Origin: an uncultured Flavobacteriales bacterium
Lineage (GTDB): Bacteria > Bacteroidota > Bacteroidia > Flavobacteriales_E > Vicingaceae
Direction of reading: 5' to 3'
DNA length: 64,000 bases
Assembly (NCBI GenBank): GCA_905479915.1
Contig: CAJQOH010000025.1
Location: 1-64,000, forward strand
Part shown: positions 21,975 through 37,810 of the stretch, piece by piece
How positions within the stretch are numbered: the first letter of the stretch is position 1
How the letters are laid out: each line of letters opens with the position of its first letter
Notes under the pieces: generated by a model
The model's input: the letters and a program-made list of their open reading frames with translations, nothing else
The model's database searches: none
What the model was told of the DNA's origin: nothing
Made by a program: the position numbers and the translations under genes

Positions 21975-23234
21975 ATGAAAAAGCTAGTTTATTTCTTTTT
22001 ATTAATTATTGTAGTTGCTTGCTCTGGTGACAACTCTCAATCAACCACTGAAAAATCTTTATTAGTTGAAGGTGATTGGCTCTTAAAATTTCAATTATCT
22101 GAAACAAACATAGCACCTATCAATTTTATTTTAACTAAGAGTGATTCCCGTTATGAAGTTACTTTTTCTAATGCTGATGAAAAAATAACAGCAAAAGAAA
22201 TAACTATTTCCGACAAGAAAATAACCATTAAAGACCCTCTTTTTAACACTTGGTTTGAAGGTGTAATTATTAATCCAACTAAAATAGAAGGATCATGGTT
22301 TAAAAATGGTCAAGAATATAAAATTCCTTTTACAGCTGATTACGGGGTAAATACTCGATTTGAGAAACCTAAAAAAATGTCTAATTCCAATGTAAATATT
22401 AGTGGGAAATGGGAAGTTGATTTTAGTAAAGACAACACTGAAAATCATTACAAAGCTATTGGTCAATTTCAACAAGTCGATGATTATGTTACTGGAACAT
22501 TTATAACTGAAACAGGTGATTATCGCTATTTAGAAGGTAACATGTACAACAACAACCTTTACCTCTCTTGTTTCGATGGGTCTCATTTATTTTTATTTAA
22601 AGGAACGCTAATTGATGGTCGATTATCAGGTATATTCTATTCAGGAACACACTGGGAAGAACCATGGGTTGCTATAAGAAATCACAAATTCGAATTGTCA
22701 AACCCTGATTCTTTAACCTATTTGAAAGAAGGATTTGATAAACTAGCTTTTACTTTTCCAAACACTAATGGAGACAGTATTTCATTAACAGACGAAAAAT
22801 ACAAAGACAAAGTAGTAATAGTAAATATTATGGGGCCTTGGTGTCCTAATTGTAAAGACGAAACAGCTTATTTATCAAAACTCTATGAGAACAATCATGA
22901 ACAAGGGTTAGAGATTATAGCTTTATCTTTTGATAAATCAGAAGAGTTTGAGATTGCTAAAGAAAATATTCTTAAAGTACAGTCACACTTTAATGCCAAT
23001 TATGATTTCCTTATTGCTGGAAAAGCGAACAAAATTGCTGCTGCAGAATCGTTGCCAATGCTAAATCACATTATGTCATACCCAACATCAATTTTTATTG
23101 ATAGAAACGGTCAAATTCAAAAAATCAGAACAGGGTTCTATGGACCAGGAACTGGTTCATATTATACCAGATATGTTGAAGAAACAAATGACTTTGTTGC
23201 TCGACTATTAGCCGAAGAGGTTATTAAAAAGTAA
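21975..23234 (+). CDS. TlpA-like thioredoxin-fold lipoprotein
   Basis: A 419-aa lipoprotein (lipobox VVACSGD, Cys about residue 17). Residues about 30-240 are a beta-rich region of unknown type (two similar halves: GDWLLKF...EITISDKKITIKD and GKWEVDFSKD...YRYLEGNMYNNNLYL). Residues about 250-415 are a TlpA/AhpC-type thioredoxin domain with the redox motif WCPNC near 289 and the cis-Pro segment YPTSIFIDRNGQI. It probably reduces or isomerises disulfides in the periplasm or at the membrane. Its 3' end overlaps the convergent DUF4837 gene by 11 bp. Confidence 0.9.
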   Translation: MKKLVYFFLLIIVVACSGDNSQSTTEKSLLVEGDWLLKFQLSETNIAPINFILTKSDSRYEVTFSNADEKITAKEITISDKKITIKDPLFNTWFEGVIINPTKIEGSWFKNGQEYKIPFTADYGVNTRFEKPKKMSNSNVNISGKWEVDFSKDNTENHYKAIGQFQQVDDYVTGTFITETGDYRYLEGNMYNNNLYLSCFDGSHLFLFKGTLIDGRLSGIFYSGTHWEEPWVAIRNHKFELSNPDSLTYLKEGFDKLAFTFPNTNGDSISLTDEKYKDKVVIVNIMGPWCPNCKDETAYLSKLYENNHEQGLEIIALSFDKSEEFEIAKENILKVQSHFNANYDFLIAGKANKIAAAESLPMLNHIMSYPTSIFIDRNGQIQKIRTGFYGPGTGSYYTRYVEETNDFVARLLAEEVIKK

Positions 23235-24216
23235 TTGACTTTATTAACGCTTCTTGCTCTCTTAAAAATTCACGTTTGTCAAACTTTGGAGAATAAACGT
23301 AACCATCAATAGTAATTACCCTATTGTTTTTTTCATCCACCAAACTGTAATTAATAAATGGACCTCCCATAAAGTCTCTATGCATGTGCCATAACCCGCG
23401 CAACTCATTTAAATAAACCCCATTTAAGCTTATTTCTTTTTGAATAGGTACATATTCTTTATATGACAGCATATAAGAACCCTCGTTAGCTCCTTCAACA
23501 TACTTTCTTGTATAAGAATTCCTTTTTTCAACAAGATTTGCAATTTCAAAAGTACTGTCACTAATGTAAGGATATGTATATATCATTATCCCTTGAATTA
23601 TCTGATGTCCTCCTGCAGTCTTGTCTTTCCTCATCCATAAAAAATCTTCTGATTCTGCTGCCACAATATACAATTCATCCAAGTTTAAACGCAATCCAAA
23701 TTTATCGTGAATGTATTGTGCATTTTTACTATTTGCATTTACTCGATGTTTTGCTTGTAACCTTGTTATTTCTTTATTGTTAAAGTAGTCCAATAAAACA
23801 CCTGCATTTTTAGATATAGTTTCTGCTGCAATTTCATCTGAAGGAGCTGTAATAGTTACCACCAATTGAGATGCTGACCATACCTCTTTTCTTACCGTTA
23901 ATTTAATTGAGCTTTCTTTCTCAATATTGATCATAATAATATTTCTCATCGGATGAAACAACCTAGCGAAAGATCGGTGCGGAACTTGTATTAAGCTAAA
24001 TAACGGTTCTCTCTGTGGCAAACCGACCTGCTCTTGAGAAAAAATTTGTTTAATCGCATCACCCGTTTGATTGTTATAATACAAAGAGTCTGTAACTATT
24101 AATAAGTCTCCCGCTTTACCTGTAGCGCTTGGCAATACCCTCTCATTCATCTCATCACAAGAAACAAATGTTAAAGAGGTTATTAATACAATAAAAAGAA
24201 TTTTAACTGTTTTCAT
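23224..24216 (-). CDS. DUF4837 family lipoprotein
   Basis: A 330-aa lipoprotein (lipobox TFVSCDE, Cys about 20) of the DUF4837 family, found widely in Bacteroidota with unknown function. Recognisable features are LPSATGKAGDLLIVTD after the anchor, the block REPLFSLIQVPHRSF...PMRNIIMINIE, and the C-terminal RGLWHMHRDFMGGPFINYSLVDEKNNRVI...GYVYSPKFDKREFLR. It lies 11 bp downstream of the lytic transglycosylase gene. Its 3' end overlaps the opposing thioredoxin lipoprotein gene. A link with cell-wall turnover is inferred from that neighbour. Confidence 0.9.
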   Translation of the reverse strand: MKTVKILFIVLITSLTFVSCDEMNERVLPSATGKAGDLLIVTDSLYYNNQTGDAIKQIFSQEQVGLPQREPLFSLIQVPHRSFARLFHPMRNIIMINIEKESSIKLTVRKEVWSASQLVVTITAPSDEIAAETISKNAGVLLDYFNNKEITRLQAKHRVNANSKNAQYIHDKFGLRLNLDELYIVAAESEDFLWMRKDKTAGGHQIIQGIMIYTYPYISDSTFEIANLVEKRNSYTRKYVEGANEGSYMLSYKEYVPIQKEISLNGVYLNELRGLWHMHRDFMGGPFINYSLVDEKNNRVITIDGYVYSPKFDKREFLREQEALIKSITF

Positions 24217-24227
24217 ATTCTAGCAAT

Positions 24228-25718
24228 TTAGCCTACAGGTTTAATTTTTAGTTTGGTTCCTAATTTTAGCTTTTTAATGTTTATTGCTTTATTCAGTCGC
24301 TGAATTTGCTCTATACTCACCCCTTCATATTTCTGAGCGATGTCCCATAAATTATCGCCAGATTTTACGGTATGATACATGTATTTCCCATCTATCGTTG
24401 GTTTCGCCTTTTGAGCATCAACATTTGCTTTCTTTTTGTTTTGAACTGCGTAACTTGATTTAGCATAGATATATAACTTCTGACCTATTTTCAATCGGTC
24501 ACTATATAAATTATTCCAGTCCTTTATTTGACTCACTCTACAATGATAACGATTAGCAATTGTTCCTAAAACATCTCCACTTTTTACTCGATATACAATA
24601 GCATCTCCTCTTTTAGTTGAAGAAATAGGTTTATTTTGAGCAAATGCAATACTATCCTTTATATCCTGTTCAGTTTTTAAAGCATAAATTGTTTGCTCAT
24701 TCGTAATAAAATCCCCCATCTTTTCAACAGGCAAACAAAGTATATTGGCCTCTGCAGTATTAGGAATAAAGTTCTGCTTATAGGTAGGGTTTAAATACTC
24801 TAGATAATCAAGTGGTATATCCAAATATTCTGAAATTTGAGCAAAAGACAAATGATCTGACAACGAAACAGTATCTACATTAAAACATGTTAAATCAGGT
24901 TGTTTAGGATAAATATTGTGTTCAGAAGCATAAGCCATTACATAATTAACAGCAATAAAGGCAGGAACATAACCTCTTGTTTCTCTTGGTAAAAAATTTC
25001 GAATTTCCCAATAGGTTCTTTTACCTCCAGACCGTCTTATCGCCTTATTTACATTTCCTGGACCACAATTGTAAGCAGCTAAAGCTAAATCCCAATCATT
25101 ATACATTTTATGTAAATACTTTAAATAACGGCAAGCCGCATCGGTAGATTTATACACATCACTTCGCTCATCATAATATGAAGTAACCTCTAAATCAAAC
25201 ATTTTACCTGTTCTATACATAAACTGCCATAAACCAGTAGCTCCAACTCTCGATTTTGCTTTAGGGTTTAATGCCGATTCAACAACAGCCAAATACTTAA
25301 GTTCTAAAGGCATGTTGTATTTATCTAAGCTCTCCTCAAATATTGGAAAATACATTGGAGCTAAACCCAGCATTTTTGCCGTTGTCTTTTTTCGTCTTTT
25401 TGCATACAGGTTAACATAGCCAGTAATGTGACTATTGTAAACTAAACTAAAGGGCGAATTTGCATTTAACTTTTCAAAACGTTGGGCATATGTTAAACTA
25501 TCAAAAACGGGAACAGAATCTTTAGCATATCCGTTCGTGTTTAATTCTTCTACATTATCATTAAACCCTAAACTTTCAAAATAACCAGAGGCCATCATAC
25601 TATCGATTGCCGCCAAAACAGGATCATCATCAAGCATTATTTTTGACGTATCTTTTGTTTGAGCAAAAGTATTGGCAACAAGTATAAATGATAATATAAT
25701 TGAAAATTGAAATTTCAT
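24228..25718 (-). CDS. MltD-like lytic murein transglycosylase with two LysM domains
   Basis: A 496-aa periplasmic enzyme that cleaves the MurNAc-GlcNAc bond of peptidoglycan with 1,6-anhydro ring formation. A signal peptide ends at FAQ (about 20). The SLT/GH23 domain spans about 115-290; the catalytic Glu147 is in AVVESALNPKAKS, followed by GATGLWQFM, the AAYNCGPGNV block and YVPAFIAVNYV. Two LysM peptidoglycan-binding domains lie at about 377-420 and 450-494. This matches the MltD layout. It sits between tatA and a DUF4837 lipoprotein gene, an arrangement I recall as common in Flavobacteriales. Confidence 0.94.
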   Translation of the reverse strand: MKFQFSIILSFILVANTFAQTKDTSKIMLDDDPVLAAIDSMMASGYFESLGFNDNVEELNTNGYAKDSVPVFDSLTYAQRFEKLNANSPFSLVYNSHITGYVNLYAKRRKKTTAKMLGLAPMYFPIFEESLDKYNMPLELKYLAVVESALNPKAKSRVGATGLWQFMYRTGKMFDLEVTSYYDERSDVYKSTDAACRYLKYLHKMYNDWDLALAAYNCGPGNVNKAIRRSGGKRTYWEIRNFLPRETRGYVPAFIAVNYVMAYASEHNIYPKQPDLTCFNVDTVSLSDHLSFAQISEYLDIPLDYLEYLNPTYKQNFIPNTAEANILCLPVEKMGDFITNEQTIYALKTEQDIKDSIAFAQNKPISSTKRGDAIVYRVKSGDVLGTIANRYHCRVSQIKDWNNLYSDRLKIGQKLYIYAKSSYAVQNKKKANVDAQKAKPTIDGKYMYHTVKSGDNLWDIAQKYEGVSIEQIQRLNKAINIKKLKLGTKLKIKPVG

Positions 25719-25871
25719 CTTTTATCTAACGGCTTTTTTTATTGATTGTTATCTGAACTCTCTAGATAGGGGTTTCTCTTGCCAAAAGATAAAGGCAATA
25801 AGTAGTATAAAAACCCTAAATGGAACAGTTCTCCAACGGATAGTTGAAGCTCTAAATTTTTCAGAAAAGAA

Positions 25872-26072
25872 TTAACTTAACTTTTCAGTCTCTTTGTCAT
25901 CAGACTTTACAGCGTCTTCTCCCTCTTTAATTCCTTCTTTAAACTCTTTAACTCCTGAACCTAAACCTCTCATTAATTGTGGTATTTTTTTACCTCCAAA
26001 TAATAATAATACGATAGCAACAATTAATGCTATTTGCCATGGTCCAATAAATCCTAATAATATAGTGTTCAT
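25872..26072 (-). CDS. tatA: Sec-independent translocase subunit TatA/E
   Basis: A 66-aa protein with one N-terminal transmembrane helix (WQIALIVAIVLLLFG), the FGGKKIPQLMRGLG hinge and amphipathic helix, and an acidic, lysine-rich tail, which is the TatA/E layout. It forms the channel part of the twin-arginine pathway that exports folded proteins. No tatC is in the window. The gene leads the minus-strand group with the transglycosylase gene 153 bp downstream. Confidence 0.95.
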   Translation of the reverse strand: MNTILLGFIGPWQIALIVAIVLLLFGGKKIPQLMRGLGSGVKEFKEGIKEGEDAVKSDDKETEKLS

Positions 26073-26136
26073 CTTTTTGTTTTTTTTTCACTAAAATAGT
26101 AGTGATTCTAGTTGGTAAAGGTACAAAAGATTTTGT

Positions 26137-27057
26137 TTAAACCGTTACAGCTTTTTTCTTTTGGTTTACCTTCCAAATTAAAACTAAAATTGTTGCAGAG
26201 AGTATAAAACTAAGCACATAAAAAATGATGCTACTGTCACTTTCTCCAAAAATAGAAATATCAGCATTCTCCATCATTTCAGGGAAAAAATAACTAGCAA
26301 AAACAACCGTTCCATTGTTAATAAAATGTCCTACAATTGGTAACCATAAAGATTTTGACCAAAAAAAAGCATAACCAAAAACAAGCCCTAAAAGCATTCT
26401 AGGGAAAAAGCCAAAAAACTGCATGTGTAAAGCACTAAATGCAAAAGCCGTAACCCATATTCCTAGATGAGGATTATTAAACCATTTAATAAATATCTTT
26501 TGAAGAACTCCTCTAAACAAAAGCTCTTCACCAACTGCCGGAACAATTGCTACAATAATCAACACATAAAACAAACTCCCTAAACCATCATACTTTAAAA
26601 ATGCTTTGGTTAACATTCCTGCTTGATTTTCAGCATCTCGCATCCACTCTTCAATTCCACTCAAAAAACGAGGCAAAGCCATCGTTTCGTTTGCTTCAAT
26701 GAGCCACGATAAAAAAGGCATAGAAACAACCATTAACAGTAGAATTAATAAATAATTAATTCCATTACTAGTTGTGCTTAAACTTAATTTTTGAAAGGCT
26801 GTTTTTGAAACAATAACCGCATAAACTATAGGAGGAATAACAAATAAACCAACTGAACTAAACAATTGCAAAATTTTCATCCCAGCAATTGTATTAGGGT
26901 CTCCAAGATTATTAATATTTGAAACATCTAACCCATAAGTCGCCAATGTAATAACCCCTCCAACAATAGAGAAAAATATAACCGATATTAAACACAAGCA
27001 CAAGATTAAAATGAATTGTAATCCTGGTTTATTCTCTGTATCTATTCTTGAAAACAT
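26137..27057 (-). CDS. CPBP family intramembrane glutamic endopeptidase
   Basis: A 306-aa polytopic membrane protein with about eight hydrophobic helices. The CPBP/ABI (CAAX-like protease) motifs are complete: EELLFRG with Glu177, Glu178 and Arg182, then SALHMQFF with His211, and GHFINNG with His244. Family members cleave prenylated or bacteriocin-related substrates or act in immunity and signalling; the substrate here is unknown. It is divergent from the resorcinol-like operon, which starts 140 bp away, but I see no direct link between them. Confidence 0.93.
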   Translation of the reverse strand: MFSRIDTENKPGLQFILILCLCLISVIFFSIVGGVITLATYGLDVSNINNLGDPNTIAGMKILQLFSSVGLFVIPPIVYAVIVSKTAFQKLSLSTTSNGINYLLILLLMVVSMPFLSWLIEANETMALPRFLSGIEEWMRDAENQAGMLTKAFLKYDGLGSLFYVLIIVAIVPAVGEELLFRGVLQKIFIKWFNNPHLGIWVTAFAFSALHMQFFGFFPRMLLGLVFGYAFFWSKSLWLPIVGHFINNGTVVFASYFFPEMMENADISIFGESDSSIIFYVLSFILSATILVLIWKVNQKKKAVTV

Positions 27058-27073
27058 TTGACTTTATTTTAAA

Positions 27074-27081
27074 CAAAAATA
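27074..27081 (-). promoter_or_regulatory. -7 promoter box for the CPBP gene (TATTTTTG)
   Basis: TAnnTTTG match on the minus strand 16 bp upstream of the CPBP start codon. Confidence 0.45.
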
Positions 27082-27129
27082 ATAATTCTTAAACGCAATC
27101 AGCTTTAGCTTCTAAAACTAACTCTTTAG

Positions 27130-27137
27130 TATATTTG
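27130..27137 (+). promoter_or_regulatory. -7 promoter box for the resorcinol-like operon (TATATTTG)
   Basis: TAnnTTTG match giving a predicted leader of about 55 nt before the first ATG at 27198. The leader contains a small GGCAT/ATGCC inverted repeat (27162-27166 and 27181-27185) near the start codon. I see no well-spaced -33 TTTG. Confidence 0.5.
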
Positions 27138-27197
27138 TGGGGATAAAAAACAAATAGAATTGGCATGAAAATTGAAATTAATGCCTTTTAACTATCT

Positions 27198-27668
27198 ATG
27201 AAATCAGTCATTTTAATAACTCTCTTAACTTTTAGTATCTCTAGCTTTGCTATTGAAAAAAGTACTTTTTACAAGGTGCTTTCAGGCAAGTCTGAAACAG
27301 AAATTGGCAATACCATTCAGCAGCTTAACAAAGAAAAGTCATCCTCTTTAAACAATGCTTACAAAGGGGCTTTAATTGCCAAACAAGCTGAGTTTGCAAA
27401 AAGTGCGGTTGAAAAAGTGAAATTATTCAAGTCTGGTGTCAAACTTTTAGAAGCGGAAATTGCCAAACAACCGAACAATCTTGAATTGCGATTTTTACGT
27501 TTGGCGATCCAAGAAAACTGTCCGAAAATATTAAAATACAATTCAAATATAACCAGTGATTCTAACGCTATAATAGAGGGGTACTCAAAACTAGAAAACA
27601 AATTAAAAGCAATAATTCTGGATTATTCAAAAGGTTCTAAAGCATTAACTTCTAACAAAATTCAATGA
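27198..27668 (+). CDS. Exported helical protein, first gene of the resorcinol-like operon
   Basis: A 156-aa protein with a signal peptide (MKSVILITLLTFSISSFA) and a mature part that is almost all helical and lysine-rich. It contains ELRFLRLAIQENCPKILKYN (about 98-117), which looks like a helical pair, with one Cys. I recognise no catalytic motif. Its stop overlaps the DarA-like ATG by 4 bp (ATGA), so it is translationally coupled to the pathway. A periplasmic carrier or chaperone for the product would fit an exported lipid, but that is only an inference. Confidence 0.78.
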   Translation: MKSVILITLLTFSISSFAIEKSTFYKVLSGKSETEIGNTIQQLNKEKSSSLNNAYKGALIAKQAEFAKSAVEKVKLFKSGVKLLEAEIAKQPNNLELRFLRLAIQENCPKILKYNSNITSDSNAIIEGYSKLENKLKAIILDYSKGSKALTSNKIQ

Positions 27669-28573
27669 AAAAAATATTAGTCGTTAGCTTTTCTCAAAGT
27701 GGACAATTATCTCAAATTGTAGAAAAATTTTTAACCCCTTTTAAAGGTGTTGATATTGATCAAGTTAATATAGAGCCAAAAAAGCCATTTCCTTTTCCTT
27801 GGGACACAACTTCATTTTATGATGCCATGCCTGAAACGGTTTTGGAAGAACCTATAGAAATAAACCCACCACAATTTAAACACCAAAATTACGATTTGAT
27901 CATTTTTGGCTATCAGCCGTGGTTCCTTTCTCCTGCAATGCCTGCCACAGCCATTCTAAAAAATAGTGAATTTTGCAAAAGACTAAAAGATACCCCTATT
28001 ATTACATTACTTGGAGCAAGAAACATGTGGCTAAATGCTCAAGAAAGTTTAAAACAGTTAATAAAAGAGGCAAAAGGTGAACTTGTTGGACACATTCCTT
28101 TGGTTGATAAAACATTTAACCTGATTAGCGTTATCACTATTGTTCATTGGTTAAGTACAGGAAAAAAAACAAAAAAATGGGGAATATTTCCTTTGCCAGG
28201 AGTCTCAGAAAAAGACATTAACGAAACTTCCATTTTTGGGGAAATTGCAGAGAAATCTCTTCAGAATGAAGACTTTACCAATTTTCAAAAAGATGTTTTA
28301 GCACTCAATAAAATACAAATTAACACAAGTATTTTATTTATAGAATCTAGAGCAAAAACCTTATTTAAAATTTGGGCCAATACAATTAAAAAAAGAGGTA
28401 CTACTCCTAAAAAAAGAAAAACGTGGTTAACAATTTTTAGAATTTATTTGTACTTCGCCTTATTTATTGTTTCTCCTATAATATTAACGATTTACACATT
28501 AGTATTTAGGCCGTTAACTTTAGGTAAAATAAAGAGAAAAAAAGAGTATTTTCGCAATGTAAAACTAAATTAA
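27665..28573 (+). CDS. DarA-like dialkylresorcinol biosynthesis enzyme (flavodoxin fold, membrane-anchored)
   Basis: A 302-aa protein resembling DarA of dialkylresorcinol pathways, thought to oxidise/aromatise the cyclic dione made by DarB. The N-terminus (KKILVVSFSQSGQLSQIVEKFL) has the flavodoxin-type phosphate-binding loop SQSGQ. The middle (NYDLIIFGYQPWFLSPAMPATA, about 79-100) and TPIITLLGARNMW (about 116-128) fit a flavodoxin/NAD(P)H-oxidoreductase core. Residues about 255-280 are a transmembrane helix, followed by a basic tail. The membrane anchor suggests work on a lipid. The gene overlaps its upstream neighbour and is followed 3 bp later by the DarB-like gene. Confidence 0.82.
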   Translation: MKKILVVSFSQSGQLSQIVEKFLTPFKGVDIDQVNIEPKKPFPFPWDTTSFYDAMPETVLEEPIEINPPQFKHQNYDLIIFGYQPWFLSPAMPATAILKNSEFCKRLKDTPIITLLGARNMWLNAQESLKQLIKEAKGELVGHIPLVDKTFNLISVITIVHWLSTGKKTKKWGIFPLPGVSEKDINETSIFGEIAEKSLQNEDFTNFQKDVLALNKIQINTSILFIESRAKTLFKIWANTIKKRGTTPKKRKTWLTIFRIYLYFALFIVSPIILTIYTLVFRPLTLGKIKRKKEYFRNVKLN

Positions 28574-28576
28574 AAA

Positions 28577-29719
28577 ATGTCGAAAGTATACATAACTAGA
28601 ACTTCAAACTTTTTACCAAACAGCGTTGTTTCCAACGATGAAATGGAGGAATATTTAGGTTTAATTAATGGCAATAAATCTAGGTCTAAAGCATTGGTTT
28701 TACGAAGCAATAAAATCCAACAACGATATTACGCTTTAACTAAAGAAGGAAAAGTAACACATAGTAATGCTGAATTAACTGCCTTAGCGGTTAAAAATCT
28801 ATTTACAGCAAACCCTGATGAAATTAAAGAGGTTGATTTACTTTGTTGTGGAACATCTTCTCCAGATCAAATGATGCCAGCGCATGGGATTATGGTACAT
28901 GGGAAGTTGCCAGAAATGAACTCTATAGAAGTAATTACACCAGCAGGAAACTGTTGTGCTGGAATGCATTCTTTAAAGTATGCCTACATGTCATTACAAC
29001 TTAACGATAAAAGTAAAGCTGTATGTACTGGATCTGAACGCACATCTATTTTGTTACGTTCAGAAAATTATGAAGATGAAATACAAGAGTTAAGTAAATT
29101 ACAAGATTTACCTTATTTAGCTTTCGAAAAAGATTTTTTAAGATGGATGCTTTCTGATGGTGCAGGAGCTTTTATGTTGGAAAAAGAGCCCAACAAAGAT
29201 GGCCTTTCTTTAGAAATAAACTGGATGGAATCCGTTTCGTTTGCCAATGAAGAAGAAACATGTATGTACATGGCTTCTGAGAAAATGGAGAATGGTGAAC
29301 TCAAAGGTTTCGCTGAATTTACACCTCAAGAAAGTGCTGCACAATCGGTTTACAGCATTAAGCAAGATGCAAGACAACTTGATGGAAAAATTGTTGAATT
29401 AAGTTTTAAGAAAGTTCCTGAAATTTTCGAGAAACACAATTTATCGTCAGAAGACCTTGATTACTTCTTGGTCCACATGTCAAGCTATTACTTTGAGAAC
29501 AAGATTGCTCAACATTGGGATGACTTAAACATGCCTATTCCTAAAGAAAAATGGTTTACCAATCTGGGTACGAAAGGAAATGTTGGAGCTGGATCAATCT
29601 ACTTAATGGTTGATGAATTATTAAACAGTGGTAAACTTAAAAAAGGTCAAAAAATATTACTTGTTGTTCCTGAAAGTGCAAGATTCTCTTACGTGTACTG
29701 TCTACTAACTGTTTCTTAA
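28577..29719 (+). CDS. DarB-like beta-ketoacyl-ACP synthase III
   Basis: A 380-aa thiolase-fold ketosynthase of the KASIII type. All three catalytic residues are present: Cys127 in GNCCAGMHSL, His300 in FLVHMSSYYFENK and Asn335 in GTKGNVGAGS. In dialkylresorcinol pathways DarB condenses two acyl-derived thioesters and closes the ring. The adjacent DarA-like enzyme makes that role more likely here than ordinary fatty-acid initiation by FabH. At 380 aa it is longer than FabH (about 320), consistent with DarB-type enzymes. The 132-aa gene follows after 1 bp. Confidence 0.85.
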   Translation: MSKVYITRTSNFLPNSVVSNDEMEEYLGLINGNKSRSKALVLRSNKIQQRYYALTKEGKVTHSNAELTALAVKNLFTANPDEIKEVDLLCCGTSSPDQMMPAHGIMVHGKLPEMNSIEVITPAGNCCAGMHSLKYAYMSLQLNDKSKAVCTGSERTSILLRSENYEDEIQELSKLQDLPYLAFEKDFLRWMLSDGAGAFMLEKEPNKDGLSLEINWMESVSFANEEETCMYMASEKMENGELKGFAEFTPQESAAQSVYSIKQDARQLDGKIVELSFKKVPEIFEKHNLSSEDLDYFLVHMSSYYFENKIAQHWDDLNMPIPKEKWFTNLGTKGNVGAGSIYLMVDELLNSGKLKKGQKILLVVPESARFSYVYCLLTVS

Positions 29720-29720
29720 G

Positions 29721-30119
29721 ATGAAAAAAAAGGACCTCCCACAAGATGATAGTGGCTTAAAAGGTTTTACCAGAGAAGTCTGCTATGTAAAAAATAGTGA
29801 TGGAAAGTATGAATCTGGCTTAAGTTCTGGATGGGATGTTAAAAATGAAGCGCTGGAAAATGCTTGGGGAGACATTAATGAGCAAATAGAAGAAGCTAAA
29901 CAAGCTATTGCTGCAGGGGAAAAAAGTCCTATATATTATTATTTCATAAAAAATTTAATGGATTTTCAAGTCTTATCTGGTTATACTGGATTTTGGAAAT
30001 TCTCTATAAAAAAACACATGACACCTAAAGGGTTTGCTAAACTCAGCGATAAAAAGTTAGCTAAATATGCAAATGCCTTTAACGTAAGTATAGAAGAACT
30101 TAAAACCCCAAAACTATAG
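29721..30119 (+). CDS. Uncharacterised 132-aa operon protein
   Basis: A soluble protein with no signal peptide or membrane helix. Visible features are a DSGLKGFTREVCYVKNSDG opening (one Cys, strand-like), a WDVKNEALENAWGDINEQIEEAKQAIAAGEKSPIYYYF helical middle with aromatic residues, and a Lys-rich C-terminal helix. I recognise no domain. It lies 1 bp after the ketosynthase gene and shares one base with the BtrH-type gene, so tight coupling suggests a structural or accessory role in the pathway, perhaps binding an enzyme or the ACP. Function unknown. Confidence 0.75.
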   Translation: MKKKDLPQDDSGLKGFTREVCYVKNSDGKYESGLSSGWDVKNEALENAWGDINEQIEEAKQAIAAGEKSPIYYYFIKNLMDFQVLSGYTGFWKFSIKKHMTPKGFAKLSDKKLAKYANAFNVSIEELKTPKL

Positions 30120-31132
30120 TGGTAAAGGATTATAAACACATACAAACTGCTCATTGTGAAAATGGTGTAATAACAAGCCTATTACAACATCAAGGGTTAG
30201 ACTTTATGACTGAACCATTAGCTTTTGGAATGGGAGCGGGTCTTTTTTACATTCATATTCCTTACATGAAAGTTAATGGTGGCCCTATGATTTCTTTTAG
30301 AGCGATGCCTGGAGGAATATTTAGTAAAACATGTAAATCTCTTAACGTAGAACTTGATAAACGAAAATTTAAAGACGAATTAACTGCGCAAAAGTATCTT
30401 GACGAAAAAGTAGCTCAAGGTATTCCCGTAGGTTGTCAAGTTGGAGTTTATAACCTGTCTTATTTTCCAAAAGAGTATCGTTTTCATTTTAATGCGCATA
30501 ACTTAATTGTTTATGGGAAAGAAGGCGATACCTATTTAATTAGTGACCCTGTAATGGAAGAGGTGACAACCCTTTCTACAAATGATTTAAATAAAGTCCG
30601 TTTTGCTCAAGGTGTATTGGCTCCTAAAGGTCACCTTTATTATCCTAAAAGCATCGGAAAGGTTGATAAAACAACTATTCAAAAAGCAATTATTAGCGGA
30701 ATAAATAGAAACATCATTTACATGTACAGAGCCCCTGGGCCTGTTATTGGTGCTACTGGTATTAAAGGTACCGCAAACAAAATTAGAACTTGGCGTGATA
30801 AACTAGGTGCTAGAAAAGCAGGTTTATACCTTGGCCAAATTGTTAGAATGCAAGAAGAAATTGGTACAGGCGGTGGTGGTTTCCGTTTTTTATATGCTGC
30901 TTTTTTAGAACAAGCTGCAGATCATTTACAAAATGATAAGTTGATGCCTATATCTGATCAATTTACAAAAGCAGGAGACCTTTGGCGTTCGTCAGCTGTT
31001 CAAATGGCAGGTATTTATAAGGGGAGATTAACGGAGCAAAAAGATTTTGATCATACTGCAGATATCATGACTGAAATTTCTGCAATCGAGTACAATGCTT
31101 TTAAACAATTGGCTAAGCTAAATTTAAAATAA
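30119..31132 (+). CDS. BtrH N-terminal domain acyltransferase-like protein
   Basis: A 337-aa protein whose N-terminal half matches the butirosin-biosynthesis BtrH N-terminal domain, a papain/C39-like fold. Candidate catalytic residues are Cys13 in TAHCENGVITS, His127 in FNAHNLIVYG and Asp143 in YLISDPV. BtrH moves an acyl chain from a carrier protein to an amine, so here it may transfer an ACP-bound chain or process the pathway product. The start is a GTG at 30119, sharing one base with the previous TAG; the next ATG would remove the catalytic Cys, so GTG is preferred. It overlaps the ABC ATPase gene by one base. Confidence 0.85.
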   Translation: MVKDYKHIQTAHCENGVITSLLQHQGLDFMTEPLAFGMGAGLFYIHIPYMKVNGGPMISFRAMPGGIFSKTCKSLNVELDKRKFKDELTAQKYLDEKVAQGIPVGCQVGVYNLSYFPKEYRFHFNAHNLIVYGKEGDTYLISDPVMEEVTTLSTNDLNKVRFAQGVLAPKGHLYYPKSIGKVDKTTIQKAIISGINRNIIYMYRAPGPVIGATGIKGTANKIRTWRDKLGARKAGLYLGQIVRMQEEIGTGGGGFRFLYAAFLEQAADHLQNDKLMPISDQFTKAGDLWRSSAVQMAGIYKGRLTEQKDFDHTADIMTEISAIEYNAFKQLAKLNLK

Positions 31133-31875
31133 TGCCTGCTTTAGCTCAGATAGAAATAAATAGTGTTTCCAAAAAGTATAAAACCGCTTCAATAGAGAGT
31201 CTATCTGATATTTCCTTTTCTATTAATGTTGGACAAACAATAGGTATATTAGGCCCTAACGGTGCAGGAAAAACAACCTTAATATCGATTCTCTGCGGAT
31301 TAATATCTCCTACCAAAGGTTCTGTTTCTTATTCCTCAGAAAGTGCAAATATAATTTCAGGAGTAGATTTAAAACGAATAATTGGTTTTGTTCCCCAAGA
31401 ATACGCATTTTATCATGAGCTTACCCCTGTTCAAAACATGAACTATTTTGGGTCGCTTTACAACCTTTCTAAAAAAGAAATTAAAGAGAAAACAGATGCA
31501 TTGCTTTCTGTATTGGGATTATCTCATGTAGCCAATAAAAAAATTAACACTTTTTCTGGAGGGATGAAACGTAAAGTAAATTTAGCTATTGGACTTATTC
31601 ATAGTCCTTCAGTTCTATTTCTAGATGAACCTACAGTTGGAGTTGATGTTCAAAGTAAACTTTCTATTATCGAGTTTTTAAAAAAAATAAGAAACCAAGG
31701 CACTACAATTATTTATACTTCGCACCATTTATCTGAAGCTGAAGATTTTTGTGATGAATTGCTATTAATTAGTAAAGGAAAAATTGTAGCCAACGGCCCA
31801 ACAAAACAGTTGATAGAAAAACATAAATCTGATAATTTACAGTCTTTATTTATAAAATTAACAGTGGCTGAATGA
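31132..31875 (+). CDS. ABC transporter ATP-binding protein
   Basis: A 247-aa ATPase with a complete nucleotide-binding set: Walker A GPNGAGKTT (41-49), Q-loop FVPQEY (Gln89), signature FSGGMKRK (141-148), Walker B VLFLDEP (161-167) and the H-loop TSHHLSEAE. It resembles the drug- or lipid-exporting (CcmA/ABC-2) class, not importers. It pairs with the permease gene overlapping its end by 4 bp. Within this operon it probably powers export of the synthesised product or an intermediate. Confidence 0.93.
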   Translation: MPALAQIEINSVSKKYKTASIESLSDISFSINVGQTIGILGPNGAGKTTLISILCGLISPTKGSVSYSSESANIISGVDLKRIIGFVPQEYAFYHELTPVQNMNYFGSLYNLSKKEIKEKTDALLSVLGLSHVANKKINTFSGGMKRKVNLAIGLIHSPSVLFLDEPTVGVDVQSKLSIIEFLKKIRNQGTTIIYTSHHLSEAEDFCDELLLISKGKIVANGPTKQLIEKHKSDNLQSLFIKLTVAE

Positions 31876-33146
31876 AATTAATGGCTTCCATAAAAAAAGA
31901 GCTTTTATTACTATTCAGTGATAAGGTTGGGCTGTCTATCATGTTCTTGATGCCCTTGTTATTGGTCTTTATCATTACCATCATTCAAGACAGTGCTTAC
32001 AAAATGGTTAATGAAAATAAGGTTTCACTAATCATCTCAAATCAAGATAAAGGAGAGCAAGGGGTTAAATTAATTCAACTGTTAACCGAATCTGGTTTAT
32101 TTGAAATGCATGCGCAAAATCAGCTCCAATCTCACGAATTAAAAAATTATTTATTAGATGAGAACAAACTAACCGCGCTTTACATTCCTGAAAACTTCTC
32201 TGATAAACTAAAAGAAAAAGCTACTCAAATAAGTGAAACATTAACTTATGAATTAGGTCTTTCTGAAATAGAAAAGAGCAATACAGCAATTATACTCCCT
32301 AATCTTCATTTTTATCACGACCCTGTTTTACAAGAAAATTATAGTTATTCCATTACCAATGTTATTGGTTCATTTTTAAACATTATTGAAAATGAATTAA
32401 TGATAGAATCTATTTATGCTGAAGTGGGTATTGAAAAATCTCCTAATGATTTTAAGGAAAAAATAATGTCCAATAAAATTGTAATTGATCGTATTCCTGC
32501 CAAGAACGATGAGCACATGATTAACCCCAATTCAACTCAACACAATGTGCCTGCATGGACTATTTTTGCGATGTTCTTTATGGTTGTTTCTTTAGGAAGT
32601 AACATTGTTAAAGAAAGAGTAAATGGTAGTTTTTTAAGGTTAAAAACAATGCCAACAAATTATACCCATATTCTATCCGCTAAAATGATTGTTTACATGG
32701 TGGTGGCAGTATTACAATTTGCACTTATCTTTTCAATTGGAATAACTGTTTTCCCTTTAATTAATCTCCCTCAATTGGTTTTACCTTCAGCATTTTCTGC
32801 TTTTATTGTTATGATGTTAATGTGCAGTATGGCAGCAGTAAGTTACGCTATGATGATAGGGGCATTATCAAAAACACAAGAGCAATCAAATGGAGTTGGG
32901 GCAGTATCAATTATCATTTTTGCAGCATTAGGAGGCATTTGGGTGCCTACTTTTGTAATGCCAGAATACTTACAAATCATTAGCAACTTTTCACCAATGC
33001 ATTGGTGTTTAGAAGGCTTTTATATCTTATTTTTGAAAGGTGGAAGTTGGAGTCAACTTTTCCCTGTTATAGGATTTTTATTTATCTTCATCGCAGTTTG
33101 TCAGATTACAACTTATACAAAGCTTAAACTAGAAAAATTAATTTAA
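31872..33146 (+). CDS. ABC-2 type transporter permease
   Basis: A 424-aa membrane protein of the ABC-2 family. One helix lies at about 18-38 (SIMFLMPLLLVFIITII), then a large extracytoplasmic region (about 45-225), then about five C-terminal helices, including GSNIVKERVNGSFLRLKTMP (the coupling segment near 245-262) and GGIWVPTFVMPEYLQIISNFSP. This fits YhfE/NodJ-like exporters, with the outward loop perhaps meeting a periplasmic partner. The start codon overlaps the ATPase stop by 4 bp. The ACP gene follows 1 bp after the stop. Confidence 0.92.
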   Translation: MKLMASIKKELLLLFSDKVGLSIMFLMPLLLVFIITIIQDSAYKMVNENKVSLIISNQDKGEQGVKLIQLLTESGLFEMHAQNQLQSHELKNYLLDENKLTALYIPENFSDKLKEKATQISETLTYELGLSEIEKSNTAIILPNLHFYHDPVLQENYSYSITNVIGSFLNIIENELMIESIYAEVGIEKSPNDFKEKIMSNKIVIDRIPAKNDEHMINPNSTQHNVPAWTIFAMFFMVVSLGSNIVKERVNGSFLRLKTMPTNYTHILSAKMIVYMVVAVLQFALIFSIGITVFPLINLPQLVLPSAFSAFIVMMLMCSMAAVSYAMMIGALSKTQEQSNGVGAVSIIIFAALGGIWVPTFVMPEYLQIISNFSPMHWCLEGFYILFLKGGSWSQLFPVIGFLFIFIAVCQITTYTKLKLEKLI

Positions 33147-33147
33147 A

Positions 33148-33414
33148 ATGGAAGCAGCAGAATTAAAAGCAAATTTAAAAACACAAATCATAAAGTATTT
33201 AAACTTATTAGATATTACTCCTGAAGAGATCAATGATGACACCCCTCTTTTTGGAGAAGAGTTAGGTTTAGATTCTATTGATTCTATCGAGCTTATCGTT
33301 TTATTAGAAAGAGAATACGGAATTAAAATTACGAACCCTACTGAGGGTAGAAAAATTTTAGTTGATGTAAATAAAATGGCGGAATACATTTTAGAACATT
33401 CTGATAAAGTTTAA
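33148..33414 (+). CDS. Acyl carrier protein
   Basis: An 88-aa carrier protein with the phosphopantetheine site at Ser43 in LGLDSIDSIEL, an acidic helix II and the usual four-helix pattern. It carries acyl chains as thioesters for the two ketosynthases in the operon and possibly for the BtrH-type transferase. It is distinct from a housekeeping AcpP by its context (between an exporter and a KAS II-type gene). No phosphopantetheinyl transferase is in the window, so activation must come from elsewhere. Confidence 0.93.
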   Translation: MEAAELKANLKTQIIKYLNLLDITPEEINDDTPLFGEELGLDSIDSIELIVLLEREYGIKITNPTEGRKILVDVNKMAEYILEHSDKV

Positions 33415-33440
33415 TCTCTTCGATTAAATTTCATGTACCA

Positions 33441-34634
33441 ATGAAAAAAGTTTTTGTCACAGGAATGGGTATTATTTCGGCTATTGGAAACAATACTCCC
33501 GAAAATCTTAACAGCCTAAGAAGTGGAAAAACAGGAATTGGACCAGCAAAATATGTAAATTCTAATTATGGAAAAACACACCCTTTTGCTGAAGTAAAAT
33601 TGAGTACCGATGAATTAAAATCAACACTCAACCTAAAAAATAACCATGGGTTAACCCGAACAGATTACATTGCTTTTACCGCCCTAAAAGAGGCAATTGC
33701 TCAATCCAATATATCTACTGAAGAGCTTTCTTCGGAAGAAACTGCATTTATTTCTGCAAGTACAATTGGAGGGATGTGCAATACTGATGAACTTTATAAA
33801 GATGCCAACTTAATCTCTTCAGGTTCTGAATATGTAGAATCTTACCCTGGAAGTACACACACCTTAAAAATTGCCAAAGAGTTTGAGTTGTCTGGAGTTG
33901 TTGGTGCAATTAATACAGCTTGTTCTTCTTCAGCAAACTCAATTATGCTTGGTGCTAAACTCATAAAATCAGGAAGAGCCACCAGAGCGATTGTTGGTGG
34001 AACCGATAGTCTTGGAAAGTTTAGTATTAACGGGTTTAATTCTCTTCAAATAATGTCAGACATTCCTTGTGCACCATTTGATGCAGATAGAAAAGGGTTG
34101 AATTTAGGTGAAGGAGCTGCTTACCTTATCTTAGAATCTGAAGATGTTATTGAAGACAAGCAAGCATATGCTGAAATTTTAGGTTATGGAAATAGTAATG
34201 ATGCCTTCCATCCTTCATCTCTTTCTGAAGATGCAGTAGGCGTTGTTGAGTGTATTTCTAAAGCTTTAAAAAGTGCTCAGGTAAATCCAAATGAAATTGA
34301 TTACATCAATGCTCATGGAACGGCAACAGGTAATAATGATATGACTGAATTAACAGGGATTAGTAAAGTCTTTAACGGCTTCCCTCCATTTAATTCTACC
34401 AAATCTTATACAGGGCATACACTAGCTGCAGCGGGCGCTATTGAAGCCGTATACAGTATTTTAAGCATTAATAACAACGAATTATTCCCGAGTTTAAATT
34501 GCAACACTCCTATCGAACCTTTTAATCAATTTCCAATTAAAGAGCACATTAATTCAGACATCAAAACAGTCCTTTCCAATTCTTTTGGATTTGGAGGAAA
34601 TTGTTCTTCATTAATAATAAGAGAAGTAACGTAA
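33441..34634 (+). CDS. Beta-ketoacyl-ACP synthase (KAS I/II, FabF-like)
   Basis: A 397-aa condensing enzyme with an intact Cys-His-His triad: Cys161 in NTACSSSAN, His292 in NAHGTATGNND and His326 in YTGHTLAAAGA, plus the FGFGGNCSSL C-terminal motif. It extends acyl chains on the ACP with malonyl units. The adjacent gene, abutting it directly, encodes a homologous protein without these residues, so the two probably form a KS/chain-length-factor-like heterodimer as in type II polyketide synthases. It is unlikely to be the housekeeping FabF, judging by sequence and context. Confidence 0.9.
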   Translation: MKKVFVTGMGIISAIGNNTPENLNSLRSGKTGIGPAKYVNSNYGKTHPFAEVKLSTDELKSTLNLKNNHGLTRTDYIAFTALKEAIAQSNISTEELSSEETAFISASTIGGMCNTDELYKDANLISSGSEYVESYPGSTHTLKIAKEFELSGVVGAINTACSSSANSIMLGAKLIKSGRATRAIVGGTDSLGKFSINGFNSLQIMSDIPCAPFDADRKGLNLGEGAAYLILESEDVIEDKQAYAEILGYGNSNDAFHPSSLSEDAVGVVECISKALKSAQVNPNEIDYINAHGTATGNNDMTELTGISKVFNGFPPFNSTKSYTGHTLAAAGAIEAVYSILSINNNELFPSLNCNTPIEPFNQFPIKEHINSDIKTVLSNSFGFGGNCSSLIIREVT

Positions 34635-35675
34635 ATGTACATTACCGATCTCTATAGCATATCACCCCAAAAAACATTCAACAATTCATTGTTTGAAGGA
34701 GAAGTAGAAATCATTTTTGGGAATAAATATTATGCGATTGAACCTAATTACTCAGAGTTAATACCAAGAGGCCTACTCCGAAGAATGGGTAAAGCCGTAA
34801 GACTAGGTATTGGTGCAGGAATGCCTTTAATCAAAAAACAAAATAATCTTGATGGCATTATTATAGGAACTGCTAGTGGTGGGCTTGATGATTGTATTAA
34901 GTTTTTAAATCAAATTGTAGAATATAATGAAGGTACACTAACCCCAACTAATTTTGTATCAAGTACTCCAAACTCTATTTCTGGCCATTTAGCATTAATG
35001 AGTAAAAACACCGGATACAACAATACGCACATGGGGATGGGTCTCGCTTTTGAATCTTCTATTTTAGATGCTTTTTTATTATTTGAAGAGGGCGATGTTT
35101 CTAAACTATTAATAGGGAGTGTAGAAGAAACTTCAGAGCACAATCATAACATAGATACTTTCGCTGGCCACTTCAAAGATGTAGAAATTCCATCTACAGA
35201 TTTGATTAGTAGCAACTCCAAAGGCTCAGTTAGAGGTGAGGGTTCTTCTATGTTTATCGTCTCAAAAGATAAGGAAAACGCTATTTGTGAATTGGCTGAT
35301 GTGCATCAGTTTACCTATCCAAAAGAACAAAACATTGAAGATCGCGCAATTAAATTTTTAGCAAAAAATAAGTTAACATCAACTGATATTGATGGTTTAA
35401 TGCTTGGATTTAGTGGAGATAATAGACATGATTTTTGGTACGAAAACTTAATGAAGTCATTTCCTGAAGCAACAATTTATACCTATAAAAACTTGGTTGG
35501 AGAGTATGCTACAGCAAGTGGTTTTGCTACATGGTTTGGAGCGCAAATTCTAAAGGGACAAAACATTCCTGATGAAGCCATCTACAGAAAAACCAACCGA
35601 TCCCAAAAAAACATACTGATTTACAATAACTACTTAGGGGCTCAGCATGGATTTATTCTTCTAAAAGGAATATAA
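34635..35675 (+). CDS. Ketosynthase-like protein lacking catalytic residues (chain-length-factor-like)
   Basis: A 346-aa thiolase-fold protein, shorter than its neighbour but alignable. The nucleophile position reads GLAFESS instead of TACSSS (Phe139 in place of Cys). The second His region is VGEYATASG instead of TGHTLAAAG (Glu for His), and the NAHGTATG motif is absent (GFSGDNRH). It keeps the GTASGG, SSTPNSISGHLA and EGSSMFIVS framework of a KS fold. It is therefore probably not itself a condensing enzyme but a partner that shapes chain length or the dimer interface, as CLF does. It is the last gene of the operon and abuts the KAS gene with no gap. Confidence 0.8.
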   Translation: MYITDLYSISPQKTFNNSLFEGEVEIIFGNKYYAIEPNYSELIPRGLLRRMGKAVRLGIGAGMPLIKKQNNLDGIIIGTASGGLDDCIKFLNQIVEYNEGTLTPTNFVSSTPNSISGHLALMSKNTGYNNTHMGMGLAFESSILDAFLLFEEGDVSKLLIGSVEETSEHNHNIDTFAGHFKDVEIPSTDLISSNSKGSVRGEGSSMFIVSKDKENAICELADVHQFTYPKEQNIEDRAIKFLAKNKLTSTDIDGLMLGFSGDNRHDFWYENLMKSFPEATIYTYKNLVGEYATASGFATWFGAQILKGQNIPDEAIYRKTNRSQKNILIYNNYLGAQHGFILLKGI

Positions 35676-35687
35676 TCGAGCAATTTA

Positions 35688-36731
35688 TTAATCTACAATG
35701 TAGATTCTTTTGATATCATCATATTCTGTTTCCAAGATCCATTCGCCTTTTAGGTTAATTAACCCCCACTTACCATCCTTTCTTACTGAGGCATAGCCAT
35801 GATTAAAATCTCTTGCTATATCATAAGTCGGTTTTATTATCCATTCTCCAGAACTGTTTAAAAATCCAATTTTTGCGTCACCTGCATGTTCAGAATCTCG
35901 ACACATTCCACCCCAAAAATTCTTATACTCTCTCGAATTCTCAAAATTAATTACTTCACCTTTGGTATTCACATAAGCCTTTTTGCCATCAAGCCCTACA
36001 ACGATAGCTAAACCGCTAATTGGGTCAAAGTTTTTCGCTCTTATCATAATTGGACCAACAATCTCTTCTCCTTTTTGATTAATATAACCTACCCTATTGC
36101 CTTTTCTGGTTCTGTGTTTTACCCAAGCTAAACCTCCAAAAAAGCTTCCCGAAGAGAGATATTGTCCTTCAACCACAACCTCTCCTTTAGTATTAATAAA
36201 CCCCCACTTTTTCGAAATCTCAACAGCAGCTAACCCTTCAGAAAATTCTCTTACAGCAGTAACCTTACTTTTACCACCAAGCATAATTTTTTGTTCTTTG
36301 CCTTTTTTATCTATAACAAAATATTCTTTCCCCTTTTTAACAATGGCATAGCCTCCATTAAAATCTGTAGAATAATCATATGCAGCAGAAATTACTACTT
36401 CTCCACTAGTATTCATATACCCCCAATAATTAGAAACCTTAACAGCCAATAATCCGTCACTAAACTCTCTTACGCCCATTAATCCAGATTTAATATAAGT
36501 CCGAATACTAATTCGCTCTCCTTTGGTGTTTACAAAAAAGATTCCTCCAACTTTTGAATAGCCACTGTTAAAAGGTTTACAGGTTGGATATTTAACATCT
36601 ATTACAACTTCTCCTTTTAAATTAATAAATCCCCACAATTCGCCTTTTCTAACCATTGCCAAGGTATCTTGACTAAAAGATTCAGCTGAAAAACTTAAAA
36701 AGAAAACAATAATTAAAGCTACTTTTTTCAT
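35688..36731 (-). CDS. Secreted WG-repeat protein
   Basis: A 347-aa exported protein (signal peptide to SAESFSQ) made of about eight to ten WG repeats, each close to WGFINLKGEVVID...Y and spaced about 35-55 residues. Clear copies start near residues 33, 108, 178 and 322. WG-repeat proteins form beta-propeller or solenoid-like surfaces, probably for protein contacts; no enzyme activity is known. It is convergent with the resorcinol-like operon (12 bp between ends) and divergent from dusB. Function unknown. Confidence 0.88.
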   Translation of the reverse strand: MKKVALIIVFFLSFSAESFSQDTLAMVRKGELWGFINLKGEVVIDVKYPTCKPFNSGYSKVGGIFFVNTKGERISIRTYIKSGLMGVREFSDGLLAVKVSNYWGYMNTSGEVVISAAYDYSTDFNGGYAIVKKGKEYFVIDKKGKEQKIMLGGKSKVTAVREFSEGLAAVEISKKWGFINTKGEVVVEGQYLSSGSFFGGLAWVKHRTRKGNRVGYINQKGEEIVGPIMIRAKNFDPISGLAIVVGLDGKKAYVNTKGEVINFENSREYKNFWGGMCRDSEHAGDAKIGFLNSSGEWIIKPTYDIARDFNHGYASVRKDGKWGLINLKGEWILETEYDDIKRIYIVD

Positions 36732-36816
36732 GATTTGTTCATTTAAATAGAATTAGATTACCTCTTAATTTCTAATAGTAATGTTAAGATAAAAATTCAT
36801 TTAAAAAAAGTAATCC

Positions 36817-36824
36817 TAACTTCG
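36817..36824 (+). promoter_or_regulatory. -7 promoter box variant for dusB (TAACTTCG)
   Basis: A TAnnTTCG variant ending 8 bp before the dusB ATG, implying an almost leaderless mRNA. Confidence 0.4.
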
Positions 36825-36832
36825 CACCGTAA

Positions 36833-37810
36833 ATGGTAAAAATAGCCGACATAGAATTGGGAGAATTTCCGCTCTTACTTGCTCCAATGGAAGATGTAAG
36901 TGATCCTCCTTTTAGAGCTTTATGTAAAGAGAACGGTGCTGATTTGATGTATACCGAGTTTATTTCTTCAGAAGGTTTGATTAGGGATGCTGTAAAGAGT
37001 GTGCAAAAGCTTGATATTTTTGAATATGAAAGACCTATCGGCATTCAAATATTTGGAAGCAACATAGAGTCTATGAAAAAAGCTACAGAAGTTACTGCAG
37101 CAGCTAAACCAGATATCATTGACATTAACTATGGTTGTCCTGTAAAAAAAGTTGCAGGGAAAGGCGCAGGTGCAGGAATACTTCAAGACATTCCTAAAAT
37201 GGTTGAAATGACCAAAGAGATTGTTAATTCTACCGATTTACCAGTTACCGTAAAAACTCGTTTGGGTTGGAATGAAGAAACCAAATACATCGTTGAAGTT
37301 GCAGAACGCTTACAAGATATTGGAATTAAAGCCATTTCAATACACGGAAGAACTCGAAAACAAATGTATAAGGGTAGTGCCGATTGGAGTTTAATAGGAG
37401 ATGTAAAAAACAATCCAAGAATGCACATTCCTGTTTTTGGAAATGGAGATATTACAACCCCAGAGGATGTAGTAAGAGTTAAAAATGACTATGGTGTAGA
37501 TGGTGTTATGATAGGAAGAGCCAGCATTGGTTACCCTTGGATTTTTAATGAAATCAAACACTTTATGGCTACTGGAGAACATTTACCAGGACCACAAATA
37601 CAAGATAGAATAACAGCAGCTAGAAGACATCTAGAAATGTCTGTTAAATGGAAGGGAGAAACATTAGGGGTTGTTGAAATGAGAAGACATTATGCCAACT
37701 ATTTTAAAGGAATTTCTCACTTTAAAGAACATCGAATGAAACTCGTTACTCGAGATCAAAGTGCTGATGTTTTTGCTGCTTTAGATGAAATTGAAAGTGT
37801 GTTTGCTTAG
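36833..37810 (+). CDS. dusB: tRNA-dihydrouridine synthase
   Basis: A 325-aa FMN-dependent TIM-barrel enzyme that reduces uridine to dihydrouridine in tRNA. Family motifs include LLAPMEDVSDPPFRALCKE (15-33), DINYGCPVKKVAGKGAG with catalytic Cys102, VKTRLGW (about 140) and FGNGDITTPED (about 202), followed by MIGRASIGYPWIF. The length and the GCPVKKV spelling fit the DusB subgroup. It is monocistronic and convergent with the LolC/E-type permease gene (1 bp between ends). Confidence 0.95.
   Translation: MVKIADIELGEFPLLLAPMEDVSDPPFRALCKENGADLMYTEFISSEGLIRDAVKSVQKLDIFEYERPIGIQIFGSNIESMKKATEVTAAAKPDIIDINYGCPVKKVAGKGAGAGILQDIPKMVEMTKEIVNSTDLPVTVKTRLGWNEETKYIVEVAERLQDIGIKAISIHGRTRKQMYKGSADWSLIGDVKNNPRMHIPVFGNGDITTPEDVVRVKNDYGVDGVMIGRASIGYPWIFNEIKHFMATGEHLPGPQIQDRITAARRHLEMSVKWKGETLGVVEMRRHYANYFKGISHFKEHRMKLVTRDQSADVFAALDEIESVFA

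Follow-up and report, generated by a model that had tools for sequence, protein, structure and literature searches.

Flexirubins are described in the literature as orange-yellow pigments located in the outer membrane of Bacteroidota, in which a resorcinol is esterified with an aryl-polyene acid. Heterologous expression of darB and darA from Chitinophaga pinensis yields the flexirubin dialkylresorcinol (DAR), and mutation of darB in Flavobacterium johnsoniae abolishes flexirubin (PMC3992019). Besides the DAR genes, the loci of F. johnsoniae (Fjoh_1078-1110 region) and C. pinensis (flxA-flxY and a dar cluster) encode a tyrosine ammonia-lyase, a reductase, dehydratases, a ketosynthase (KS), LolA, a glycosyltransferase and a CoA ligase. 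A DAR is also part of the polyene-DAR pigment arcuflavin of Azoarcus, whose dar cluster consists of darA, darB, darD (conserved hypothetical), darE (BtrH-like), darF (ABC ATPase), a toxin-antitoxin-like pair, darI (permease), darC (acyl carrier protein, ACP), darJ (KS) and darK (PMC3949708). In the Photorhabdus isopropylstilbene system, the ketosynthase/cyclase StlD is homologous to DarB.

The stretch analyzed here, referred to as the window, comprises 64,000 nucleotides from an uncultured Flavobacteriales bacterium. Positions 27198-35675 hold ten plus-strand ORFs that begin and end exactly at these limits (Table 1). The first-pass annotation had described ten tightly packed genes, and the ORF ends and gaps agree with this: the spacings are, in order, -4, 3, 1, -1, -1, -4, 1, 26 and 0 bp, so that all lie between -4 and +3 bp except for the 26 bp separating the ACP and KS genes. 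Judged from sequence comparison, the operon very probably represents the DAR half of a flexirubin-type pigment pathway, a known cluster type, and its most likely product would be a flexirubin-type pigment, i.e., a polyene ester of a dialkylresorcinol. What seemed, when viewed alone, to be a new lipid pathway would then be half of a common pigment pathway, with the other half elsewhere in the genome. Flexirubin clusters are common, with 1,234 predicted among the 2,680 genomes of a public survey (PMC10734526), and the operon is therefore to be regarded as an ordinary one.

Table 1. Genes of the dar operon in the window, with the evidence on which each assignment is based.
Gene or product	Coordinates	Strand	Length (aa)	Basis
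Small, predicted secreted or periplasmic protein with N-terminal signal-like sequence; first gene of the operon	27198..27668	+	156	ORF
Putative darA, dialkylresorcinol-forming (aromatase/condensing) enzyme, flavodoxin-like N-terminal domain	27665..28573	+	302	position 5' of darB, fold
darB, KAS III-like ketosynthase/cyclase, StlD/DarB family	28577..29719	+	380	NF053539, PDB 5gk0
darG (NCBI naming; darD place in Azoarcus), conserved protein	29721..30119	+	132	NF053545
darH (NCBI naming; darE place in Azoarcus), BtrH-type acyltransferase	30119..31132	+	337	NF053550, PF14399 + PF16169
ABC transporter ATPase (darF in Azoarcus)	31132..31875	+	247	PF00005
ABC-2 type permease (darI in Azoarcus)	31872..33146	+	424	PF12698
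Acyl carrier protein (darC in Azoarcus)	33148..33414	+	88	PF00550, phosphopantetheine site
FabF-type ketosynthase, Cys-His-His intact (darJ in Azoarcus)	33441..34634	+	397	PF00109/PF02801
Dead KS-like protein, chain-length-factor-like partner (darK place in Azoarcus)	34635..35675	+	346	PF13723

From darA to the last gene, the order is the same as in the dar cluster of Azoarcus sp. BH72 (azo0283-azo0293). Of the two clusters, only that of Azoarcus has the toxin-antitoxin-like pair between the ABC genes, and only that of the window has the secreted first gene, none being listed for Azoarcus (PMC3949708). The polyene starter also differs, being 3-hydroxybenzoate in Azoarcus and tyrosine-derived in the pathway proposed here. 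It should be noted that DarG and DarH are used here in the NCBI sense, which differs from the darG and darH of PMC3949708, where these names denote the toxin-antitoxin-like pair. The gene combination had at first been considered unusual and distinct from flexirubin clusters, a view that had to be given up given the order shared with the published Azoarcus cluster and the polyene operon that the genome carries on a different contig (C14).

Profile searches against NCBIfam and Pfam bore out the initial assignments of DarB, the BtrH-type protein, the ABC ATPase and permease, the ACP and the KS. DarB scored above the NCBI curated cut-off (NF053539; 581 bits versus 550) and is homologous to StlD (PDB 5gk0, E 9e-108), and DarG exceeded the cut-off of the flexirubin DarG family (NF053545; 177.7 bits versus 170). 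The fold model of DarG was of moderate confidence (pLDDT 79.9), with a weak helix-turn-helix-like similarity (best E 0.028). That the KS-like partner is catalytically dead, as first proposed, was also seen, with Gly, Gly and Glu at the places equivalent to the Cys-His-His motifs carried by the neighboring KS. Its single PDB sequence match was 6qsp_B (E 3e-6), which we take to be from an aryl-polyene ketosynthase/chain-length-factor (CLF) pair. The curated family matches for DarB, DarG and DarH support a dialkylresorcinol cluster, and the first-pass annotation was right that it includes an ABC exporter, a protein of the acyltransferase type and a pair resembling KS/CLF.

For DarA, no Pfam or NCBIfam family model matched, and a sequence search against the PDB gave a weak flavodoxin-type match (2mwm, E 5e-5). 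Its AlphaFold model (pLDDT 94.2) showed a flavodoxin/WrbA-like N-terminal domain followed by a helical C-terminal part, and Foldseek likewise retrieved the flavodoxin/WrbA fold (3edo, TM by target 0.71). The gene was present in 68 of 80 DarH-bearing loci, where it is kept 5' of darB, and we therefore assign it as the putative darA by its conserved place beside darB together with this predicted fold. The product of the first gene had no match in Pfam or NCBIfam. Homologues were found in 58/80 DarH-bearing loci across Bacteroidota, usually directly upstream of darA.

A neighborhood comparison across Bacteroidota showed that the genes are kept together in a recurring order. darA, darB, darG, darH and the ATPase gene are consecutive in at least 65 of the 80 DarH-bearing loci, and at least 32 of the 80 continue through to the KS-like gene; both counts are lower bounds, as some loci lie on short contigs. 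Within the genus, one congener (G007; L018/L047) carries the ten dar genes as a single block embedded in the polyene operon, and three others (G009, G010 and G013) have the dar operon at the same chromosomal place as the window and the polyene operon on another contig.

The first-pass annotation had remarked on the lack of ketoreductase, dehydratase, thioesterase and CoA ligase genes. While this is correct for the operon in the window, it does not apply to the genome, where all four are encoded in the polyene operon on C14. This operon also includes the tyrosine ammonia-lyase FlxA (G000:C14:100012-101535; NF053541, 797 bits versus a cut-off of 700) and the flexirubin LolA2 protein (LolA2_flexi, G000:C14:41478-42083; NF053544, 183.6 bits versus 125), as well as FlxB (395 bits, cut-off 340). 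Furthermore, it contains several KS, ACPs, an LpxL-like acyltransferase, two dehydratases (one FabZ-like), the thioesterase, a CLF-like protein, a polysaccharide deacetylase, a glycosyltransferase, an AAT-family acyltransferase and the AMP-binding (CoA) ligase. Such a gene content has been reported for flexirubin loci (PMC3992019; PMC5932025), and it is shared with F. johnsoniae and C. pinensis. The aryl-polyene dehydratase family PF22817 gave no match in this genome, but none in the control genomes either, and so does not bear on the question.

Separate loci for the two halves are also found in C. pinensis (PMC3992019). Unlike in the loci of F. johnsoniae and C. pinensis, however, the polyene operon of the window genome is itself interrupted by a segment of about 49 kb with unrelated genes (G000:C14:46973-96038), which lies precisely between the thioesterase gene and the ketosynthase gene that follows. 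This segment carries exopolysaccharide-type genes (Wzy_C, glycosyltransferases, a sigma-54 regulator and a hybrid histidine kinase) and is missing from the same spot in G009, G010 and G013. The ORFs flanking it look intact, and an assembly join is possible. Because of the interruption, expression of both parts of the polyene operon is not certain.

Three markers, namely the DarG family, LolA2 of the flexirubin type and a second, FlxA-type aromatic ammonia-lyase, picked out the same 11 genomes among 60 relatives, with LolA2 below its cut-off in one of these genomes (G044). In a larger sample of the class (396 genomes, completeness floor 90%), the DarG family was found in 66 genomes and the FlxA-type lyase in 71, the latter count consisting of 63 over the curated cut-off and 8 that scored 635-696 bits, far above the next value of 391. 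The two occurred together in 65 genomes, 1 genome had DarG without FlxA and 6 had FlxA without DarG (Fisher p 3e-66, uncorrected for relatedness). The two genes were within 40 kb of each other in 20 of the 65 genomes, far apart on one contig in 2 and on different contigs in 43. Separate dar and polyene loci, as in the window genome, are common, in part due to fragmented assemblies. In the single DarG-only genome (G087), darG and darH are on one contig (C54) and darB on another (C58), and the AAT-family acyltransferase and CoA ligase are present; loss of the lyase, a gap in the assembly or the use of a different starter would each explain this pattern.

From these comparisons we infer the roles of DarG, DarH, the KS/CLF pair, the ABC transporter and the secreted protein, as well as the product of this organism. 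Following published precedent, DarB would join two fatty-acid-derived acyl units and DarA would help to convert the resulting product to a 2,5-dialkylresorcinol, while the ACP, ketosynthase and dead KS partner of the operon probably supply one of the acyl units. The second operon of the genome would provide an aryl-polyene carboxylic acid from tyrosine, and the two halves would be joined as an ester, most likely by DarH acting on a polyene thioester. Movement of the pigment towards the outer membrane may then be assisted by the LolA-type carrier together with the ABC transporter and secreted protein of the dar operon.

The comparative data narrow the choice of enzyme for linking the resorcinol and polyene parts of flexirubin, a modest new point. 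BtrH-type proteins are acyltransferases acting on carrier-protein thioesters. DarH is well above the cut-off of its family (NF053550; 455 bits versus 300) and has the domains BtrH_N (PF14399, 159.5 bits) and PF16169 (DUF4872). Cys13, His123, His127 and Asp143 are invariant in 81/81 DarH sequences and may form its catalytic site. Profiles of DarH and DarG searched against solved structures returned just coiled-coil designs and weak matches. DarH was absent from all six genomes with FlxA but no DarG, five of which had no convincing DarB and the sixth (G105) a DarB below cut-off. DarH thus tracks the DAR genes, and the pattern in these FlxA-only genomes favors DarH as the ester-forming enzyme. 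Owing to the known BtrH-type activity, the invariant residues and this distribution, DarH is the best candidate for the step, and we consider the chances about even that it esterifies the dialkylresorcinol with the polyene acid by cysteine-histidine-aspartate acyl transfer, with DarG as a small partner. DarH could instead serve another DAR-specific step.

The assignment is not settled, because the polyene operon also encodes the LpxL-like and AAT-family acyltransferases. The pathway could thus be of the flexirubin type with the ester made by one of these two enzymes or by FlxW, a ligase-like protein put forward for the ester step (PMC3992019), and with DarH acting elsewhere, for example in acyl-ACP processing for DAR formation. 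In line with such a role, five loci keep darH beside darB and darG although neither darA nor the ABC genes adjoin them. However, the AAT-family gene and the CoA ligase were kept in all six FlxA-only genomes, which lack both DarG and DarH, so that the two go with the polyene pathway and are not specific to the DAR; moreover, both were missing from one DarH-positive genome (G060). An ester-forming enzyme from the polyene operon is a less likely, though not remote, alternative.

It is far less probable still that the operon alone makes a free or fatty-acylated dialkylresorcinol, exported and independent of any polyene. In favor of this reading, the operon is self-complete in having an ACP, KS, exporter and acyltransferase, it does not adjoin polyene genes in the window genome, and Pseudomonas chlororaphis reportedly makes a DarB-dependent resorcinol, 2-hexyl-5-propyl resorcinol. 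Against it, a polyene operon is present in the window genome, the ten genes lie inside the polyene operon in G007, and the finding of FlxA-type genes in 65 of 66 DarG-positive genomes led us to reject this as the main reading. The exported acylated resorcinol-type lipid of the first-pass annotation was nevertheless close, given that a flexirubin is a resorcinol ester; its statement that the product could not be inferred was too cautious, as the product class can be.

The five loci mentioned above (L062, L063, L064, L067 and L090, all Bacteroidota) have a compact darB-darG-darH triad, an arrangement that points to a functional unit of the three proteins. An apparently unusual neighbor of the triad proved to be a trigger-factor gene, behind which the triad sits apart from the other dar genes. 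The loci studied here differ from the Photorhabdus stilbene system in that their resorcinol genes co-occur with polyene genes.

In the genus of the window organism, a DarG match was absent from 9 of the 13 other genomes searched, several of which are incomplete, and the pigment genes appear to have been patchily gained or lost. The dar site itself is conserved in four species of the genus (window positions 22000-37810, L016, L017 and L019), with a LysM transglycosylase gene on one side and DusB on the other wherever the stretch extends that far.
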